From assembly GCA_946528255.1 (NCBI GenBank), contig CAMMYR010000029.1, positions 1 through 7,186 of the forward strand: a stretch of DNA of 7,186 nucleotides, written 5' to 3'. This document shows, one piece after another, positions 231-7,141 of the stretch. The notes under the pieces are model-generated. The model saw only the letters and a program-made list of their open reading frames with translations, was not told the DNA's origin and did no database searches. Numbering within the stretch: the first letter of the stretch is position 1; the number at the start of each line of letters is the position of its first letter. This DNA comes from an uncultured Methanomicrobiales archaeon (GTDB taxonomy: Archaea > Thermoplasmatota > Thermoplasmata > Methanomassiliicoccales > Methanomethylophilaceae). Made by a program: the position numbers and the translations under genes.

Positions 231-1271
231 ATGCGCATAATCGGCACAGACCCCTCCGATAACTCCGTCAGGGTCCACATCGAGACCGATGAGGACATCT
301 GGCATCTGTACAATGTCATCGAGGTGGGGGACCTGGTCACGGCATCCACCACCCGCAGGGAGGAGAAGGCGGCCGACAAGCTCAGGGCCGAGAGGGCCGA
401 GAAGAAGCGCATGACGCTCGGCATCAGGATAGAGAAGATGGAGTTCTCCGAGGACGACCTGAGATTGAAGCTCCTCGGGACCATCGAGACCGGGCCGCAG
501 GACATCGGCCAGCACCACACCCTCATACTGGAGGTGGGGGACCAGCTCTCCATCGGAAAAGACCGCTGGAGGCAAACCCACCGCGACAGGCTGGACAGGG
601 CGGTCAACGACGCCAGGAAGCCGAAGATAGTGTTCGTCTCCCTGGACCAGGACGAGGCGACGGTGGCGGTGCTGAGGCAGTACGGATTGAAGGAGATCGT
701 CACCATCAGATCCGGGAGGTCCGGCAAGCAGTACGCCGAGAAGCCCCAGGCCGACAATTTCCACAAGGAGATCATGGAGAAGCTGCTCCCGCTGATGGAG
801 CCGGGGATGCCCCTTGTGCTCCTCGGACCGGGATTCGAGAAGGAGGCGCTGTCCGAATCCATGAAGAGGTCCGGGGAGCAGGCGTTCTCCAAGCAATACG
901 TCTACCACACCGGGCAGACCGGGATGGCCGGAATCAACGAACTCATGAAGGCCGGCATGGGAGCGGAGGTCCTGAGGGAATCCTCAGTGGGCACCGAGCT
1001 GGAGGCCGTGGAGCAGCTGATGACCGAGATCTCCAGGAACGGCCCGGCGACCTACGGCGACATGCAGATCCGCCAGGCCGCGGATGCCGGGGCGGTTGAG
1101 AGGCTGCTCATCCTGGATTCGAAAATCAGGGAGCAGGACCTGGACGACCTGGTCAGGGCCGTGGAGGCCCAGAAGGGGAGCGTCATCGTGGTATCCGCCC
1201 AGCACGACGGCGGGAAGCAGCTGGCCGCCCTCGGCGGCATGGGCGCCATCCTGAGATACAAGATGGAGCGA
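231..1271 (+). CDS. pelA: Pelota (aPelota) ribosome-rescue factor, ending at an in-frame CGA
   Basis: Pelota (Dom34 family) enters stalled ribosomes with aEF1A-GTP and, with ABCE1, splits them. It is an aRF1 paralogue that lacks the GGQ peptide-release motif. The N-terminal Sm-like domain (about residues 1-130) opens MRIIGTDPSDNSV and includes the typical DEDIWHLYNVI segment. The central domain (about 135-260) has VFVSLDQDEATVAVL and PLVLLGPGFEKEAL. The C-terminal domain (about 265-346) ends with the family signature QLAALGGMGAILRY followed by KME. No GGQ is present. At codon 347 (1269-1271) the frame reads CGA, where family members normally stop. The standard code would add 36 residues, to TGA at 1377-1379. 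That tail is encoded by the promoter and leader of the next gene and resembles no Pelota C-terminus I know. No strong Shine-Dalgarno motif precedes the ATG; the start is chosen because the conserved N-terminus begins there. Confidence 0.92.
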
Positions 1272-1286
1272 GCCTGCGTCCGTTTG

Positions 1287-1294
1287 TTTATATA
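1287..1294 (+). promoter_or_regulatory. TATA box of the homocitrate synthase-like gene
   Basis: TTTATATA is a near-consensus archaeal TATA box, standing out in GC-rich surroundings. It predicts a transcription start near 1312-1318 and a leader of about 60 nt before the ATG at 1376. It lies just downstream of the CGA that closes pelA, inside what the standard code would treat as the pelA tail. Only a weak purine-rich stretch (GGGATGGGA) precedes the ATG. Confidence 0.6.
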
Positions 1295-1375
1295 TGGATT
1301 AGCCCTTGCAGCCATTAGGATGCATTCGCCAGTTTCGCACGAATCAGCGGAGCATACGGATGGGATGGGAACCAT

Positions 1376-2554
1376 ATGAAAGATAAGAATCAGCTCATGG
1401 AATCGTTCAAGGACAAGAGGCTCTGCGTGGTCGACTCCACGCTCACCAACGGCGAGCAGGCCGCAGGTGTCGTTTTCTCAAGCCTCGAGAGGTACAGGAT
1501 CGCCCAGCTCCTCGACGAGGCCGGCGTGGACCAGATCGTTGCCGGCATGCCCATGATGGGCGACTCGGAGAAGAAGGCGGTCAAGCACATCGCCCGCATG
1601 GGCCTCGGGGCATCCGTCATGTCCTGGAACAGGGCCGACATCAACGATATCAACGCCAGCATCGAGTGCGACGTGGACTCCGTGACCATTTCGATCGGAG
1701 CCTCCGAGTACCAGTACTCCAAGGTATACGGCCAGGACGCCCAGTGGGTCATCGACATGCTCTGCAACGCGGTCTCCTACGCCGCCGAGCACGGGATGTA
1801 CGTGTCCTGCGTCGCCGAGGACGCCCCCAATGCGGACCTCGGATTCCTCATCGACTTCGCCAAGGCGGCCAAGGCGGCCGGAGCCAACCGCTTCGGATAC
1901 TGCGACAGCCTCGGCAACGACGACCCCTTCTCCTGCCACGAGAGGATAAAGACCCTCAGCCAGATCGTCGGCATGGACATGGAGATCATCGCCCGCGACG
2001 ACTTCGGGATGGCCACCGCCAACACCCTCGCCGCGATCAAGGCCGGAGCCAAATTCGCCAACGTAACCTCCGTGGGCATCGGCTCCAGGGCTGGATGCGC
2101 CCCCCTCGAGGAGGTCTGCCTCGGCGCCAAGAAGATCATGGACGTGCCCTGCGCCGTCGACGCCACCAAATTCTCCGCCATCGCGGAGGCCGTCGCACTG
2201 GCTTCCGGGCGCCCCGTCCCCGATGGCAAGGCCATCATCGGCGGCAAGATATTCGTCCAGGAGGCCGGCGTCTCCGAGGACGGAGTCATCCGCGATGAGA
2301 ACGGCGAGGCCTTCGACCCCGCCGAGGTCGGAGCCGTCAGGACCATCGCCATCGGAAAGCACTCCAGCAGGAACACCATCATCTCCGAGATGGCCCAGAT
2401 GGGCATGCAGCTCGAGAAGGATGCTGCCGACGAGCTCCTGGCCATGGTCAGGATCGCCTGCACCCAGATGCACCGCGGCATCAGCCGCAGGGAGCTTTTC
2501 CTCCTCTACGAGGACATGATGAACGGTGCCGACGTGTTCGACAGATCCGCTTGA
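1376..2554 (+). CDS. Homocitrate/isopropylmalate synthase-like protein lacking catalytic residues
   Basis: This is a 392-residue TIM-barrel protein of the DRE-TIM metallolyase superfamily, closest by eye to NifV/AksA-type homocitrate synthases. Family marks remain: GEQAAGVVFS (26-35), WNRADINDI (84-92), SCVAEDA, YCDSLGNDDP, FGMATANTLAAIKAGA, GIGSRAG and GKHSSRN. The catalytic positions are changed. The usual D-T-T-L-R-D-G is D-S-T-L-T-N-G (20-26), losing the catalytic Arg and a metal-binding Asp. The usual H-x-H-N-D is I-A-R-D-D (205-209), losing both metal-binding His. The usual H-E-x-G-I-H is Q-E-A-G-V-S (295-300). Condensation of acetyl-CoA with a 2-oxo acid therefore looks unlikely, and a pseudoenzyme or different reaction is inferred. 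Length is normal for the family. It stops at a standard TGA and has its own TATA box. The standard-code reading of pelA would end overlapping this ATG. Confidence 0.85.
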   Translation: MKDKNQLMESFKDKRLCVVDSTLTNGEQAAGVVFSSLERYRIAQLLDEAGVDQIVAGMPMMGDSEKKAVKHIARMGLGASVMSWNRADINDINASIECDVDSVTISIGASEYQYSKVYGQDAQWVIDMLCNAVSYAAEHGMYVSCVAEDAPNADLGFLIDFAKAAKAAGANRFGYCDSLGNDDPFSCHERIKTLSQIVGMDMEIIARDDFGMATANTLAAIKAGAKFANVTSVGIGSRAGCAPLEEVCLGAKKIMDVPCAVDATKFSAIAEAVALASGRPVPDGKAIIGGKIFVQEAGVSEDGVIRDENGEAFDPAEVGAVRTIAIGKHSSRNTIISEMAQMGMQLEKDAADELLAMVRIACTQMHRGISRRELFLLYEDMMNGADVFDRSA

Positions 2555-2564
2555 AACCATTCAC

Positions 2565-2588
2565 CGGGGCCCGGGATGCCGGGCCCCG
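2565..2588 (+). terminator. GC-rich perfect hairpin after the homocitrate synthase-like gene
   Basis: Ten bases (CGGGGCCCGG) pair perfectly with CCGGGCCCCG around a GATG loop, starting 11 nt after the TGA. No T-run follows, so it is not a classic intrinsic terminator. A transcript-end or mRNA 3'-stabilising structure is the best guess from its position. Confidence 0.45.
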
Positions 2589-2635
2589 AACACTTTACGA
2601 ATTGGCCGAAGCGATTTATCTCGGCTAAATGAGAC

Positions 2636-2643
2636 TATTAATC
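2636..2643 (+). promoter_or_regulatory. Candidate promoter element of the winged-helix regulator
   Basis: TATTAATC lies about 27 bp upstream of the ATG at 2667, the spacing expected for a TATA element driving a leaderless mRNA. No Shine-Dalgarno motif precedes that ATG, which agrees. An alternative, TTTATC at 2615-2620, would give a leader of about 25 nt. The sequence alone does not decide between them. Confidence 0.35.
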
Positions 2644-2666
2644 CTAGATGCGATTATCATCCGGGC

Positions 2667-3014
2667 ATGTCTACGCTAAAGATCAGCGAACTGCTGGGGC
2701 AGAAGCATGTCATCGACGTGATCGTCTTCCTGTACTTCTTCGGGGAGCGCAACCGCTCCGAGATATACCATTCGATATCATCGAGCCAGAAGATGCCCAG
2801 GAAGCTGGAGCAGATGGAATCCGCCGGCATTATCACCACGGACGAGTTCGGCGGCCACGGCCGCAAGGCCACCAGCCTGACCGAGAAGGGGCGCTTCCTG
2901 GCCGAAGCGCTGCTGACTATAGAGGAATCGATGAAAGGCACCGCGGAGGAGTTCCGCCAGCAGATGGCGGATTCCATCACCTCGAACCTGAAGGATATGT
3001 ACCGCAGGGTGCGA
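2667..3014 (+). CDS. Small winged-helix transcriptional regulator, ending at an in-frame CGA
   Basis: A 115-residue protein with a compact winged helix-turn-helix. A hydrophobic first helix contains VIDVIVFLYFFG (about 16-27). RSEIYHSI and the probable recognition helix SQKMPRKLEQMESAG (about 30-55) follow, then a wing with FGGHGRKATSLTEKG. A charged, probably helical tail runs from about residue 75 to 115 and may dimerise. There is no ligand domain, metal-binding Cys cluster or membrane segment. The start at 2667 is preferred because homology-like sequence begins there; the frame is open back to 2526, but that part overlaps the preceding gene and the hairpin. Codon 116 (3012-3014) is CGA. 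The standard code would continue to about 3095, antisense to the 3' end of the convergent paaK, giving a Cys/Arg/Pro-rich tail unlike a regulator. It may control the neighbouring paaK; that is inference from proximity. Confidence 0.75.
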
Positions 3015-3015
3015 A

Positions 3016-4317
3016 TCGCTCGTAGGACCTGTTGTCGGTCACGTGGCTGCCCTTGCCCTCGAACCTGGGCAGGGTGCCCGGGAGGACCAGCCTAACGTCC
3101 GCCTTGATGTTGAGGATGTTCTTCATGCGCTCGGCGGTCTTGCGGGTCATCTCGCCCAGCTTGACCATGTCATCGGTGAGGTGGGCCTCGTCCAGCTCCA
3201 CCTCCACCACCATGCTGTCCATGTAGTTGGCGTTGCTGAGGGTGATGTGGTAGAACGGGGACAGGAAAGGCATCTCGCCTATGACCGACTCGATCTGCGA
3301 CGGGAACACATTGACTCCGCGTACCACCAGCATATCGTCGGTCCTGCCGGATATCCTCATGAGCCTGGGGTGGGTCCTGCCGCACTTGCAGGGCGTCCAG
3401 TCCAGGGCGGAAATATCCCCGATCCTGTACCTGATCAGGGGGAAGGCCTCCTTCTTGAGCATGGTGACCACGATCTCGCCCCTCTCGCCCTCCTTGCAGG
3501 GCTCCCCGTTCTCGTCCAGGATCTCCATGTAGCACAGATCCGCCCAGACGTGCAGGCCGCACTGCTGGTCGCACTCCAGGAACATGGGGCCGTAGAACTC
3601 GCTGGCCCCGTAGCAGTTGTGGACGTGCACCCCGGTGCGCTCCTGTAGCTTCTGCCTCATGCTCTCCGACCAGGGCTCCCCGCCGGCGATGGCCAGGCGG
3701 ACCTTGGTGTCCCTGCGGATGTCTATTCCCTTCTGGTCGCATACGTCGGCGATGTGGAACATATAGGATGGTGTGCCGGCCCAGACGGTGACGGGCAGGT
3801 CCTGCATCAGCTGTATCTGCCTGTCGGTGTTCCCTGTCCCTATGGGCAGCACGGTGGCGCCGACCTTCTCGGCCCCGTAGTGGACGCCCAGACCCCCGGT
3901 GAAGAGGCCGTAGCCGTGGAAATTCTGGAACATATCCTTCTTGGTCATGCCGAACGACGTCATTCCCCTGGCCAGGGATTCGGTCCAGTTGTCCAGATCG
4001 TTCCTGGTGTAGCCGACCACAGTGGGCCTCCCGGTGGTACCGGAGGAGACGTGGACCCTCACGAGCTCTTCGTAGGGCCTGACGAACAGCTTGTCGGGAT
4101 AGTTGTCGCGGAGATCCGACTTCCTCATGAAGGGGACCTTGCGGAACGCCTCGAAGCTGGTGATATCCGATGGTTTCACCCCAGCCTCGTCCATGCGGGC
4201 GCGGAAGAACGGGGAGATCTCGTACATCTCGGCGACCTTCTCCTGCAGGAGCTTGAGCTGCAGGGCCTCGAGTTTCTCGCGGGGCATCGTCTCGATCTCT
4301 TCGTTCCAGAAAGCCAT
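3016..4317 (-). CDS. paaK: Phenylacetate-CoA ligase family protein, copy 1, ending at an in-frame CGA
   Basis: An AMP-forming aryl-CoA ligase of the ANL superfamily, 433 residues, activating phenylacetate or another arylacetate with ATP and CoA. Motifs: ATP-binding SSGTTGRPT (91-99), HGYGLFTGGLG (134-144), YGASEFYGP (236-244), YRIGD (297-301), CKCGRTHPR (310-318, possible metal-binding Cys pair), GRTDDML and GVNVFPSQIE (334-343), and C-terminal LPRFEGKGSHVTDNR. The Lys of the usual GKAKR stretch is kept, but the next residues are GSH. The start at 4317 (MAFWNEEIE) matches copy 2 and is preceded by GGAAGG; an upstream ATG at 4347 would add ten unconserved residues. After NRSYE the codon at 3018-3016 is CGA, within one residue of the end of copy 2. 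The standard code adds 12 residues, to TGA at 2979-2977, overlapping the regulator. Substrate preference cannot be read from the sequence. Confidence 0.9.
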
Positions 4318-4331
4318 GGGTGCAACCTTCC

Positions 4332-4347
4332 GTGCCCTTCGGGGCAC
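4332..4347 (-). other. Leader hairpin upstream of paaK copy 1
   Basis: GTGCCC (4332-4337) pairs perfectly with GGGCAC (4342-4347) around a four-base loop, TTCG on the plus strand and CGAA on the minus strand. If transcription starts near 4348, from the TTAAAT at 4376-4371, this stem would be the extreme 5' end of the paaK mRNA, just before the GGAAGG ribosome site. Its function is unknown. Confidence 0.4.
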
Positions 4348-4349
4348 AG

Positions 4350-4364
4350 TGCTATGTTATAGCA
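4350..4364 (-). promoter_or_regulatory. Palindromic candidate operator/promoter of paaK copy 1
   Basis: TGCTAT-GTT-ATAGCA is a perfect inverted repeat with six-base arms and a three-base centre. It sits 33-47 bp upstream of the paaK copy 1 ATG. On the minus strand it contains CTATAAC, itself a possible TATA element; TTAAAT at 4376-4371 is the alternative. A repressor bound here would compete with TBP, so it is a candidate operator, perhaps for the nearby winged-helix protein. I saw no second copy in the window. Confidence 0.4.
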
Positions 4365-4413
4365 TACCACATTTAACCGTGTCGGTCAGTATTAAGGTGA
4401 AAACATGAGAAGA

Positions 4414-4431
4414 GGGAGGGAGGACCCTCCC
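4414..4431 (-). terminator. Terminator-like hairpin after the EF-Tu-like gene
   Basis: On the minus strand GGGAGGG pairs perfectly with CCCTCCC around a TCCT loop, followed by a pyrimidine-rich stretch with a TTTT run. It starts 10 nt after the CGA at 4444-4442, the spacing expected for the end of an operon transcript. In the standard-code reading this hairpin would be protein-coding, which is unlikely. Confidence 0.6.
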
Positions 4432-4441
4432 GGATTCCGGA

Positions 4442-5404
4442 TCGCGGTAAGACGATGGATCCGAGGACGCGGAGCTTCCCGCCCTCCAGATACATCAGTA
4501 TGGCCTTGTCGCCGGGCTTGTGGATCATATCGGAGTCCATCTCGATGGAGACCTGGGCCTGCCTGAAATCGTCCCCGTCGTCGACGGATACGACCCTGCA
4601 GGGCAGCATCTGCATCCAGTGGCCCACATGGAGCACCATGCCCTCCTTCAGCGGGGTGGGCCAGTACTTCACCAGGGATACCTTACCGGATACGGACCTG
4701 GACATCTTCATGGACGGGTCGGTGGTGAGGACGAATCCCCTGTCCAGCTCCTCTGATTCGATGTTCCTGAGGGCCAGTCCGACATGGTCGCCTTTGACCC
4801 CGTCGTCAGCATCGATGTCGTGCTTCTGGATGGATTTGAGGATGACTTCCTTGTTCACAGGGAAGACCTTCATCTTGTCGTGCTTCCTGAAGTACCCGTC
4901 TATGACGGATCCCAGGACCACGGTGCCCACTCCCTTGACGTTGAAGTGGCTGTCGACCGGACAGGAACCGCAGGTCCCTTCGCCGGGCTGCTTCGCCTCG
5001 GCCTTGGCCATGGCGATGAGCTCCTCCCTCATCTTGATGGGGTCCTCCTCGCGGTACTCGTAGTGCTCCAGGCAGGTGCCCGCCAGTATGGGGGCCAGCT
5101 GCTCCGGCTGGATGTAGTTCCTGAGGATGATGAAGCCCCTGTCTATGCCCAGGGAATCCACCATGACGATGGTCTCCCCCAAATTGGCGTCGATCTTGTC
5201 GACCACCAGTATGCAGAACTCCGACATGGCGACGGAGTAGAACAGGGATGACAGCTTCTCCGGGTACTTGGACGGCTCGATGAGGGTGAACGAATCGCTC
5301 CCCGCCTTGTGGTCGTAGAACGTCATATCGGTGACGGTGCCCTTCTTGCCGACGGTGGCGGCGTATCCGGGTGTCCCGACCACTGCGATGTTCAGGTTGC
5401 CCAC
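4442..5404 (-). CDS. EF-Tu/SelB-like protein with degenerate GTPase domain, ending at an in-frame CGA
   Basis: A 320-residue relative of translational GTPases. The G-domain-like part (about 1-125) starts NIAVVGTPGYAATVGKKGT. It matches the frame around a P-loop, but the loop itself (G-H-V-D-H-G-K-T in relatives) is shortened and lost. The DxxG position reads EPSKYPEK, and the NKxD position reads RNYI. A linker with CGSC (145-148) leads to a well-kept EF-Tu domain II (about 151-228) with FNVKGVGTVVLGSV, KSIQKHD and GDHVGLALRNI. A domain III-like barrel (about 235-320) ends GGKLRVLGSIVLP. GTP hydrolysis is not expected; RNA or ribosome binding is possible. The start is GTG at 5404, four nt after the ACT gene stop, with AGGAG about 10 nt upstream. 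Codon 321 is CGA. The standard code adds 22 residues through the terminator hairpin, to TAA at 4375-4373. I recall similar P-loop-less proteins in methanogens, function unknown. Confidence 0.85.
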
Positions 5405-5408
5405 GGGA

Positions 5409-5831
5409 TCAGATCTCCTGCTCGGTGATCAGGGTGATTCCCGCTCCCTCGAGGACGCCGACGGCCTTCTGGCAGTCGTCCACCCTAAGGAAGAAGGCGG
5501 CCTTGCTCCTGCCGGTGTAGGCGTAGCCGTACTCGATGTTGATGCCCTCGCGTCCCAGGACGTCGGCGGCGGCGAATATGGAACCGGGCTCGTCGTCGAT
5601 GATGACTCCTATTACCTCGGTCTTCCTGACGATTATGTTCTTGCCCTGGAGCTTGGAGTAGGCGTCCTCCGGGTCATCCACGATGGCCCTCAGGATACCG
5701 AACTCCGCCGACTCGGCGAGGTTGAAAGCTTTCATGTTGACGCCGCAGTCCCTGAGGACCGAGACGATGTGGGCCAGGCGGCCCGGCTCGTTGTTGACGA
5801 AAATCGACAGCTGCTTGATTATCTTCGACAT
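5409..5831 (-). CDS. Tandem ACT-domain protein, probable amino-acid sensor
   Basis: A 140-residue soluble protein made of two ACT domains. The first (about 5-68) begins QLSIFVNNEPGRLAHIVSVL, the second (about 72-138) begins VIGVIIDDEPGSIFAAADVL. Each has the ligand-loop pattern (N/D)EPG at the start of its first helix. There is no catalytic domain, so it most likely binds an amino acid as a regulatory subunit. It lies between paaK copy 2 (5-nt gap) and the EF-Tu-like gene (4-nt gap), in one leftward operon. ACT proteins are commonly found next to archaeal aryl-CoA ligases, which suggests feedback by an aromatic amino acid; that link is inference. The start at 5831 follows a good ribosome site (AGGTGAT, 4-nt spacing). 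It ends at a standard TGA (5411-5409). Confidence 0.88.
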   Translation of the reverse strand: MSKIIKQLSIFVNNEPGRLAHIVSVLRDCGVNMKAFNLAESAEFGILRAIVDDPEDAYSKLQGKNIIVRKTEVIGVIIDDEPGSIFAAADVLGREGINIEYGYAYTGRSKAAFFLRVDDCQKAVGVLEGAGITLITEQEI

Positions 5832-5835
5832 CCCA

Positions 5836-5842
5836 ATCACCT
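5836..5842 (-). promoter_or_regulatory. Shine-Dalgarno site of the ACT gene, overlapping the paaK copy 2 stop
   Basis: AGGTGAT on the minus strand closely matches the archaeal anti-Shine-Dalgarno complement and sits 4 nt before the ACT ATG. It consists of the last AGG codon and TGA stop of paaK copy 2 plus one base, immediately after a CGA codon. It implies translational coupling. It also means the two codons after that CGA have a role of their own and need not be coding. Confidence 0.7.
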
Positions 5843-7141
5843 TCGGAACTTCCTCGTATCGATAACGCGTTTTGCCTTGCCCTCGAACCTGGGCAGCGCA
5901 CCGGGAGCCTTCAGCTCCACGGTGACCGCGATGTTGAGGTACTTCTTGAGTTCGGACTCGATGTGAGACCTGAGGCGGATCATGTCGTCCAGCTTGTCCG
6001 TGAACGCCTGCTCCTTGATCTCCACCTGGAGGACCATGTTGTCCAGGGTGCCCTCCCTGCTCACGAGGATCATGTACTGGTCGCCGACCTCCGGGATCTG
6101 CATGAGCGTGTACTCGATCTGCGAGGGGAACACGTTGATACCGCGGATGATCAGCATATCGTCGGACCTTCCGGTGATCCTGCTGATCCTCGGGGAGGTC
6201 CTGCCGCAGGGGCACTCGTCGTCGTGGAGGGTGGTGATGTCCCTGATCTTGTAGCGGATCATGGGCATGGACTCCTTCTTCAGCATGGTGACCACCATCT
6301 CGCCCTTCTGGCCGGGCTCCAGGGATTCTCCTGTGTCGGGGTCGAGGATCTCGACGTACATGATGTCCCCGGCGATGTGTATCCCGTTGCGCTCCTCGCA
6401 CTCGGTGAACATGGGACCTGCCTGCTCGGATGTGCCGTAGATGTCGTAGGCCTTGATGCCCATGGACTGCTCGATCTTCTGCCTCATGCTCTCGGACCAG
6501 GGCTCCGCTCCCAGGACGGCCTTCCTCAGCTTGGTGTCCCTCCTGAAGTCGACCCCCATCTTCGCGGCGACCTCGCCCATGTGCATCAGGTAGGACGGGG
6601 TGCAGGCTATGGCGGTGACCCCCAGGTCCTGGATGAGCTCGATCTGCCTCTCGGTGCCCCCGGTGCCGGTGGGCAGGACGGTGGCGCCGACCCTCTCGGC
6701 CCCGTAGTGGAGGCCGAGACCGCCGGTGAACAGCCCGTATCCGTAGGAGATCTGCATGGTGTCGTCGGATCCGATGCCGACCGATGTCAGAGACCTGGCC
6801 AGCGCCTCGGTCCAGTACTCCAGGTCGTTCCTGGTGTAGCCGACCAGGGTCGGCTTGCCTGTGGTGCCCGAGGATACGTGGTACCTGACGACCTCGTTGT
6901 TCGGCACTGTGAACATGTTGGTCGGGTAGTTGTCGCGCAGGTCCTGCTTGACCATGAACGGCAGCTTGGTGATGTCGGCCAGGCTGCTGATGTCGTCAGG
7001 ATGGACGTTCTGCGCCTTCATCCTGTCGTGGTAGAACTTGTTGAACGAGTAGAGGTTATTGACGAGCGCCTTCAGCTCGCGGTACTGCAGCTGCTTGAGC
7101 TGGTCCTTGGGCATGCACTCCATCTTAGGGTTCCAGAACAT
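5837..7141 (-). CDS. paaK: Phenylacetate-CoA ligase family protein, copy 2
   Basis: A paralogue of copy 1, 434 residues in the standard code and similar along its whole length. Motifs: SSGTTGKPT (90-98), YGYGLFTGGLG, YGTSEQAGP (235-243), YKIRD (297-301), CPCGRTSPR (310-318), GRSDDML, GINVFPSQIE (334-343) and the intact C-terminal stretch LPRFEGKAKRVIDTR. It should activate an arylacetate to its CoA thioester using ATP. In archaea such ligases work with indolepyruvate-type oxidoreductases, in aromatic amino-acid breakdown or in making them from arylacetates; no oxidoreductase gene is in the window. It is the first visible gene of the paaK-ACT-EF-Tu-like operon. The start at 7141 (MFWNPKMECM) is preceded by AGGGGTG. 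The end reads AAG TTC CGA AGG TGA. If CGA terminates, the protein ends at Phe432, aligned with the CGA of copy 1, and the gene ends at 5843. Confidence 0.92.
   Translation of the reverse strand: MFWNPKMECMPKDQLKQLQYRELKALVNNLYSFNKFYHDRMKAQNVHPDDISSLADITKLPFMVKQDLRDNYPTNMFTVPNNEVVRYHVSSGTTGKPTLVGYTRNDLEYWTEALARSLTSVGIGSDDTMQISYGYGLFTGGLGLHYGAERVGATVLPTGTGGTERQIELIQDLGVTAIACTPSYLMHMGEVAAKMGVDFRRDTKLRKAVLGAEPWSESMRQKIEQSMGIKAYDIYGTSEQAGPMFTECEERNGIHIAGDIMYVEILDPDTGESLEPGQKGEMVVTMLKKESMPMIRYKIRDITTLHDDECPCGRTSPRISRITGRSDDMLIIRGINVFPSQIEYTLMQIPEVGDQYMILVSREGTLDNMVLQVEIKEQAFTDKLDDMIRLRSHIESELKKYLNIAVTVELKAPGALPRFEGKAKRVIDTRKFRR

Follow-up and report, generated by a model that had tools for sequence, protein, structure and literature searches.

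The stretch of DNA considered here (the window) comprises 7,186 nucleotides, positions 1 to 7,186 of contig CAMMYR010000029.1 in assembly GCA_946528255.1, from an uncultured archaeon of the family Methanomethylophilaceae, and holds seven genes whose ends are the subject of this analysis (Table 1). Five of the seven, on both strands, have an in-frame CGA, ordinarily an arginine codon, where the gene would be expected to close, and TGA closes the remaining two, just as an original prediction made for this DNA had read them; that prediction went on to propose CGA as a stop codon. Having extended the comparison to related genomes, we put the probability at roughly 0.87 that CGA closes a sizeable fraction of the genes in the window's lineage and is a true stop read by the archaeal release factor, aRF1.

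Table 1. Genes of the window, with the codon at which each ends
Gene or product	Position	Strand	End and family evidence
pelA (pelota; mRNA surveillance)	231..1271	+	CGA end 1269-1271; 36 codons to the next standard stop
HMGL-like / homocitrate-synthase-like gene	1376..2554	+	TGA end; PF00682, PF22617
Winged-helix regulator, HxlR-like, below cut-off in Pfam	2667..3014	+	CGA end 3012-3014
PaaK-like CoA ligase copy 1	3016..4317	-	CGA end 3018-3016; TIGR02155 model end at residue 430/433
Translation elongation factor 1 alpha (EF1A)-related protein	4442..5404	-	CGA end 4444-4442; PF03144
ACT-domain-pair protein	5409..5831	-	TGA end; PF19571
PaaK-like CoA ligase copy 2	5843..7141	-	Expected end at CGA 5845-5843; TGA two codons beyond

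Profile searches set the ends of three of these genes by family: the pelota model TIGR00111, 275 bits above its cut-off, reaches its final position at residue 345 of 346, and TIGR02155 ends at residue 430 of 432 in the second PaaK copy and comparably in the first, so that the family ends of pelota and both PaaK proteins coincide with CGA. The winged-helix gene scored 19.7 bits with PF01638 against a cut-off of 20.8. The TGA said to lie just beyond the CGA of PaaK copy 2 is indeed there. An absence of internal CGA had also been reported and is borne out (0 of 2178 sense codons across the seven genes), but it carries little weight by itself, as CGT and CGG are likewise at 0 of 2178.

A single scan of genome contigs returned 39 loci, the nearest of them (L001) belonging to SIG8, a metagenome-assembled genome (MAG) of the same family with some 1.9 Mb in more than 30 contigs. 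Gene order and end codons in SIG8 match the window at all seven genes (CGA, TGA, CGA, CGA, CGA, TGA, CGA), with CGA closing the orthologues of pelA (88% identical), PaaK copy 1 (92%), PaaK copy 2 (93%) and the EF1A-related protein (93%, at the same place), as well as a winged-helix orthologue merely 46% identical, in which the CGA sits four codons further on; the HMGL-like and ACT-pair orthologues both close with TGA. Among the relatives listed besides SIG8, the EF1A-related gene has TGA (16) or TAA (1) at that same place in 17 of 17, and in one further lineage, G022, it too ends in CGA (L235). Relatives sharing the read-through tails had been named as evidence that would count against a CGA stop, and no such sharing appeared: the EF1A tails of the window and SIG8 are wholly unrelated, and the distance from CGA to the next standard stop differs at all five ends (36/24, 27/91, 13/99, 23/129 and 2/16 codons for window/SIG8, in gene order). 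The ACT gene likewise closes with CGA, four codons ahead of a TGA, in relatives at four loci (L010, L103, L111 and L119).

To what extent CGA serves this role across a genome was surveyed in 740 kb of SIG8, taken in stretches. De novo gene finding with CGA allowed as a stop gave 622 genes, of which 304 ended in TGA, 274 in CGA, 29 in TAA and 15 in TAG; the aRF1 gene itself is among those closing with CGA. Over the 30 codons past the end, the mean coding score was -0.50 after CGA and -0.53 after TGA, exceeding 0.1 in 4% and 5% of cases respectively. When other codons were treated as stops in the same manner (CGT, CGG, AGA, TTA, CTA, TCA; 648 kb), coding signal persisted downstream in 31–71% of cases, against 4.7% for CGA. 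In the de novo set the frame still looked coding after 73% of TAG 'ends', which would be accounted for by TAG encoding pyrrolysine, as we take it to do in this order.

Expected ends were also set independently by homology to genes closing with a standard stop. For 243 such SIG8 genes the codon was TGA in 127, CGA in 95, TAA in nine and TAG in two, with none of these within 12 codons in the remaining ten. At the exact stop slot CGA occurred 53 times, whereas CAA (0), CAG (1), TGG (1), CGG (0), CGT (0) and CGC (4), each present in hundreds inside genes, were found there no more than four times, a comparison that rules out CAA, CAG and TGG as extra stops. Many conserved CGA codons aligned to arginine within genes were the other observation named as contrary to a CGA stop; SIG8 has 3 among 4572 aligned Arg codons of genes other than aRF1, counted on full open frames and thus free of the gene-start bias by which a gene model with CGA as a stop could miss CGA in the first 60 codons. 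Immediately before a terminal CGA, C or G is present in 90% of cases in SIG8 and 84% in G022, compared with 62% and 65% before TGA; A is avoided there, perhaps since a stop sharing ATGA with a start codon could not turn into ACGA.

The use of CGA as a stop is not confined to SIG8 and the window: the lineages G022 and G068 employ it too, though less heavily. CGA occupied the homology-expected end in 36 of 124 G022 genes and 13 of 64 G068 genes, compared with 14 of 404 for 19 other sets taken together, and fell in the exact stop slot 20 and 4 times respectively. An earlier, smaller homology sample of G068 had yielded 0 of 14. In G068 the next standard stop lies at least 46 codons on in 7 of the 13 cases, while in G054, a relative that uses TGA, one is found within 16 codons of 12 of 15 CGA ends, an arrangement also seen in the window's second PaaK gene. 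G022 shows 65% identity in the EF1A-related protein; it has internal CGA at 3 of 2835 aligned Arg codons, plus one in-frame CGA in aRF1, and in that genome the codon keeps a double meaning. Codons lying within ten positions of an expected end, against those further inside, number 107/4 in SIG8, 47/0 in G022, 20/0 in G068 and 16/4 in the rest for CGA, and 21/103, 6/123, 6/42 and 23/386 for CGT, so CGA is biased towards gene ends throughout the family, including members in which the codon is rare. Support for CGA as a stop thus comes from 740 kb of SIG8 together with two additional lineages.

Two components of the translation machinery differ in a manner relevant to this role. Firstly, typing of all 43 tRNA hits in SIG8 showed that, compared with G054, the sole type absent is tRNA-Arg(UCG), which is present in G054, G056, G022 and G068. 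A single-query BLAST search had suggested that this tRNA was missing from many relatives, until typing of all G056 tRNA hits revealed a divergent copy, for which reason SIG8 alone is counted as being without it. The suggestion that CGA has no matching tRNA therefore holds in SIG8, but cannot be the whole cause, since tRNA-Arg(UCG) is retained in G022 and G068, two lineages with CGA at gene ends; loss of the tRNA as sole cause was rejected on the same ground.

Secondly, alignment to PDB structures places the altered residues of aRF1 adjacent to the NIKS motif, with Met at the position of human Arg68 (Met68) and, in SIG8, Asn-His at that of Leu69-Ser70. Lys-Asn occupies positions 69-70 in 29 of 29 relatives and 116 of 117 NIKS-bearing homologues, SIG8 alone differing. 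Met68 is present in SIG8, G022 and G068, and family members that avoid CGA have Met, or rarely Leu, at this place. In genomes with Met68, CGA outside aRF1 makes up 12 of 15054 Arg codons, and none turned up in 33 of the 39 genomes as sampled; the corresponding counts are 21/349 for family members with Lys68, 2/223 for those with Arg68, and 24/909 and 54/902 for outgroup genomes with Arg68 and Asn68. Simulations of the eukaryotic factor eRF1 indicate that Lys63 repels a first-base C by ~6 kcal/mol, a penalty lowered to 1–2 by Arg68Ala, and predict that loss of Arg68 lets eRF1 accept C at the first position (PMC5681627, in the portion available). Together with the aRF1 residues, this makes a release factor that reads the first base loosely the best fit among the three mechanisms originally put forward, the others being an unassigned CGA and mRNA editing. 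As a separate observation, NIKS itself reads NIRS in the aRF1 of G068 (L287) and in the database proteins P0172 and P0178, altering the Lys in contact with the first base of the stop codon.

The gene for aRF1 is also where internal CGA is concentrated. At least one in-frame internal CGA occurs in the aRF1 of 46 of 50 family genomes (loci include L193-L221 and L346-L364), the four without being G002, G081, G082 and SIG8; G031, G084 and G068 likewise carry such a codon. Met or Leu stands at the human Arg68 place in 43 of the 50, and 41 of these 43 have the aRF1 CGA. Across Met68 genomes aRF1 holds 29 CGA per 9487 codons and other genes 12 per 263697, a difference of ~67-fold; pooled without SIG8 and G022, and uncorrected for kinship, the counts are 61/20183 and 36/200514. 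In the aRF1 tree 23 genomes form the sister group of SIG8, and every one of them has CGA at +20 from NIKS, where SIG8 has CGC; G012 and G015 cluster with G022, and CGA stands at -33 in each of these three. CGA recurs at several different Arg positions across clades, and the reading frame continues past it with no change of frame, unlike the frameshift layout of bacterial RF2. Separately, two aRF1 frames are broken near the C-terminus, by one in-frame TAG in G084 (L392) and one TAA in G031 (L394).

These observations can be assembled into a scenario in which aRF1 is probably the reader of CGA. A loosened loop beside the first codon base would let aRF1 accept C before G-A, and CGA would then be contested between aRF1 and tRNA-Arg(UCG) wherever a genome has the two. 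By analogy with bacterial RF2, the in-frame CGA of aRF1 is probably a self-regulating site, and the first place where CGA was kept: abundant aRF1 would cut its own synthesis short at CGA, whilst scarce aRF1 would let the tRNA read on, in the manner of a thermostat. Within other genes CGA would be lethal or costly and hence purged, which would leave TGA free to drift to CGA at gene ends. The lineage of SIG8 and the window would be furthest along this path, with tRNA-Arg(UCG) and the internal aRF1 CGA both gone in SIG8 and CGA a plain stop. Taken as a whole, the account of a four-stop code, in which Met68 aRF1 reads both CGA and UGA, the aRF1 thermostat is overridden by tRNA-Arg(UCG) alone, CGA reached gene ends at least twice, tRNA and thermostat were dropped in SIG8 and the window, and the outcome is a cellular chromosome that, for the first time, turned a sense codon into a stop, seems to us to have somewhat better than even odds of being right.

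Several alternatives to a CGA stop read by aRF1 deserve consideration. Were CGA simply unassigned, with neither tRNA nor release factor to read it, stalled ribosomes might be freed by the pelota rescue pathway, a notion favoured by the lack of tRNA-Arg(UCG) in SIG8 and the presence of pelA in the window; yet G022 and G068 retain the tRNA and end genes in CGA, and 44% of predicted SIG8 genes, aRF1 included, would need the rescue route, leaving this explanation with a small probability. C-to-U editing of CGA to UGA in mRNA, as in plant organelles, has a certain economy in that CGA and TGA differ at the edited base only and orthologues end in TGA, but no flanking motif was found at 273 CGA ends in SIG8 except that C or G is favoured at -1 (0.51 bits), the internal CGA of aRF1 falls at family Arg positions, and neither the family-wide avoidance of internal CGA nor the absence of tRNA-Arg(UCG) from SIG8 would be explained; we consider it very improbable. 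It might also be objected that the data are DNA only and the window contig short, so that the pattern could stem from misassembly, from pseudogenes, or from CGA still encoding Arg ahead of genuine extensions. The likelihood of such an artefact is close to negligible: the same ends recur on both strands in a second assembly with unrelated tails, and the 740 kb survey with its matched controls contradicts it, in keeping with the earlier view that random error or DNA damage is a poor explanation.

A narrower alternative concerns the thermostat only, namely that the CGA in aRF1 is a rare-codon pause or a relic rather than a self-regulating stop. Other aRF1 codons are equally fixed (CGT at +128, AGG at -8 and +104, each in 23 of 23), which lends it some appeal, but the CGA sits at different Arg positions in different clades, it is strongly enriched in aRF1 over other genes of Met68 genomes, and it is missing from the aRF1 of SIG8, where CGA is commonest as a stop; on balance a pause or relic appears doubtful, albeit worth serious attention.

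It is worth noting however that a number of points weigh against reading CGA as a stop recognised by aRF1. The evidence is drawn from DNA sequence, and that for the tRNA and aRF1 from SIG8 and relatives of the window's genome. Chance could account for the single missing tRNA, given that the SIG8 MAG is incomplete. Met68 is not sufficient, for internal CGA occurs in G007 (1 of 30 Arg codons), G008 (3 of 50) and G031 (1 of 36); many genomes contribute small samples to the residue-68 comparison, and the correlation between Met68 and CGA may stem from a small number of evolutionary events. The Asn69 and His70 of SIG8 (K69N/N70H), entertained as a general cause, are absent from G022. CAA and CAG stay sense codons though the simulation predicts equal loosening for both, so that aRF1 would also have to favour G at the second base. 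As to self-regulation, CGA is absent from the aRF1 gene of G002, a Met68 genome, and five of the seven Lys68 or Arg68 genomes also have an aRF1 CGA, there an ordinary codon.

Reassignment of sense codons to stops is known from mitochondria (UCA in Sphaeropleales, UUR in Pycnococcus, AGA/AGG in vertebrates) and, since 2025, from plastids (UUA/UCA in peDinoflagellates), the latter described as the first case outside mitochondria (PMC6821328, PMC12574857; consulted in part). Those organelles combine a sense codon found at gene ends only, a changed release factor and loss or lack of the matching tRNA, features that the present case shares, the last of them probably in SIG8; unlike them, the present case concerns the chromosome of a free-living archaeon, the codon CGA and a factor of aRF1/eRF1 type, with two lineages keeping the tRNA and the factor's own gene holding the codon. 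The Codetta screen reported bacteria in which the same codon family has lost its Arg meaning, some with tRNA(UCG) lost, and no new stop codon is mentioned in the available part of that report (PMC8629427); there, however, CGA/CGG pass to Trp or Gln in GC-poor genomes, whereas the genomes in which it becomes a stop here have 53–62% GC. Like that of RF2 (prfB), the aRF1 gene has, early in its reading frame, a codon the encoded factor would itself recognise, but RF2 needs a +1 frameshift at UGA where the aRF1 frame runs straight through; simple read-through self-regulation is, in the accessible text, described as unknown for RF1 and RF2, a giant-virus gene excepted (PMC5009743). Blastocrithidia eRF1 also has a change beside NIKS (Ser70Gly, at the aligned place of the SIG8 His) with altered stop reading, though there, in the extract available, a stop is read through as sense (PMC12153298), while in the present case a sense codon joins the stops. 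No paper with a CGA stop in archaea or bacteria was found in the literature covered, which excluded subscription papers and bioRxiv; CGA is likely a fourth stop codon in one archaeal lineage, and such a change would be without precedent beyond mitochondria and chloroplasts.

If true, this would extend sense-to-stop reassignment to a free-living cell with a genome of ~1.9 Mb and nearly half of its surveyed genes. The family seems to present the stages side by side, from CGA as an ordinary codon, through one shunned but kept in the release-factor gene, to a minor stop, a major stop and finally loss of the tRNA, and the published prediction for eRF1 Arg68 becomes testable in nature. In practical terms, standard gene calls in these archaea carry false tails: the database proteins P0001, P0002, P0003 and P0123 run through CGA, and the tails that they have are likely false. 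Read-through frames of this kind come from several sources, P0002 having 8 members on 14 contigs (at the protein level) and P0003 2 members on 6 contigs.

Two smaller features of the window may be added. At 3012-3018 the convergent winged-helix and first PaaK genes end on opposite strands with their CGA codons one base apart (CGA-A-TCG). Upstream of and divergent from pelA, the minus strand of positions 1-122 holds a gene start, and the start of its protein resembles a 374-aa frame at L001 15626-16750, presumably carA-like by name.

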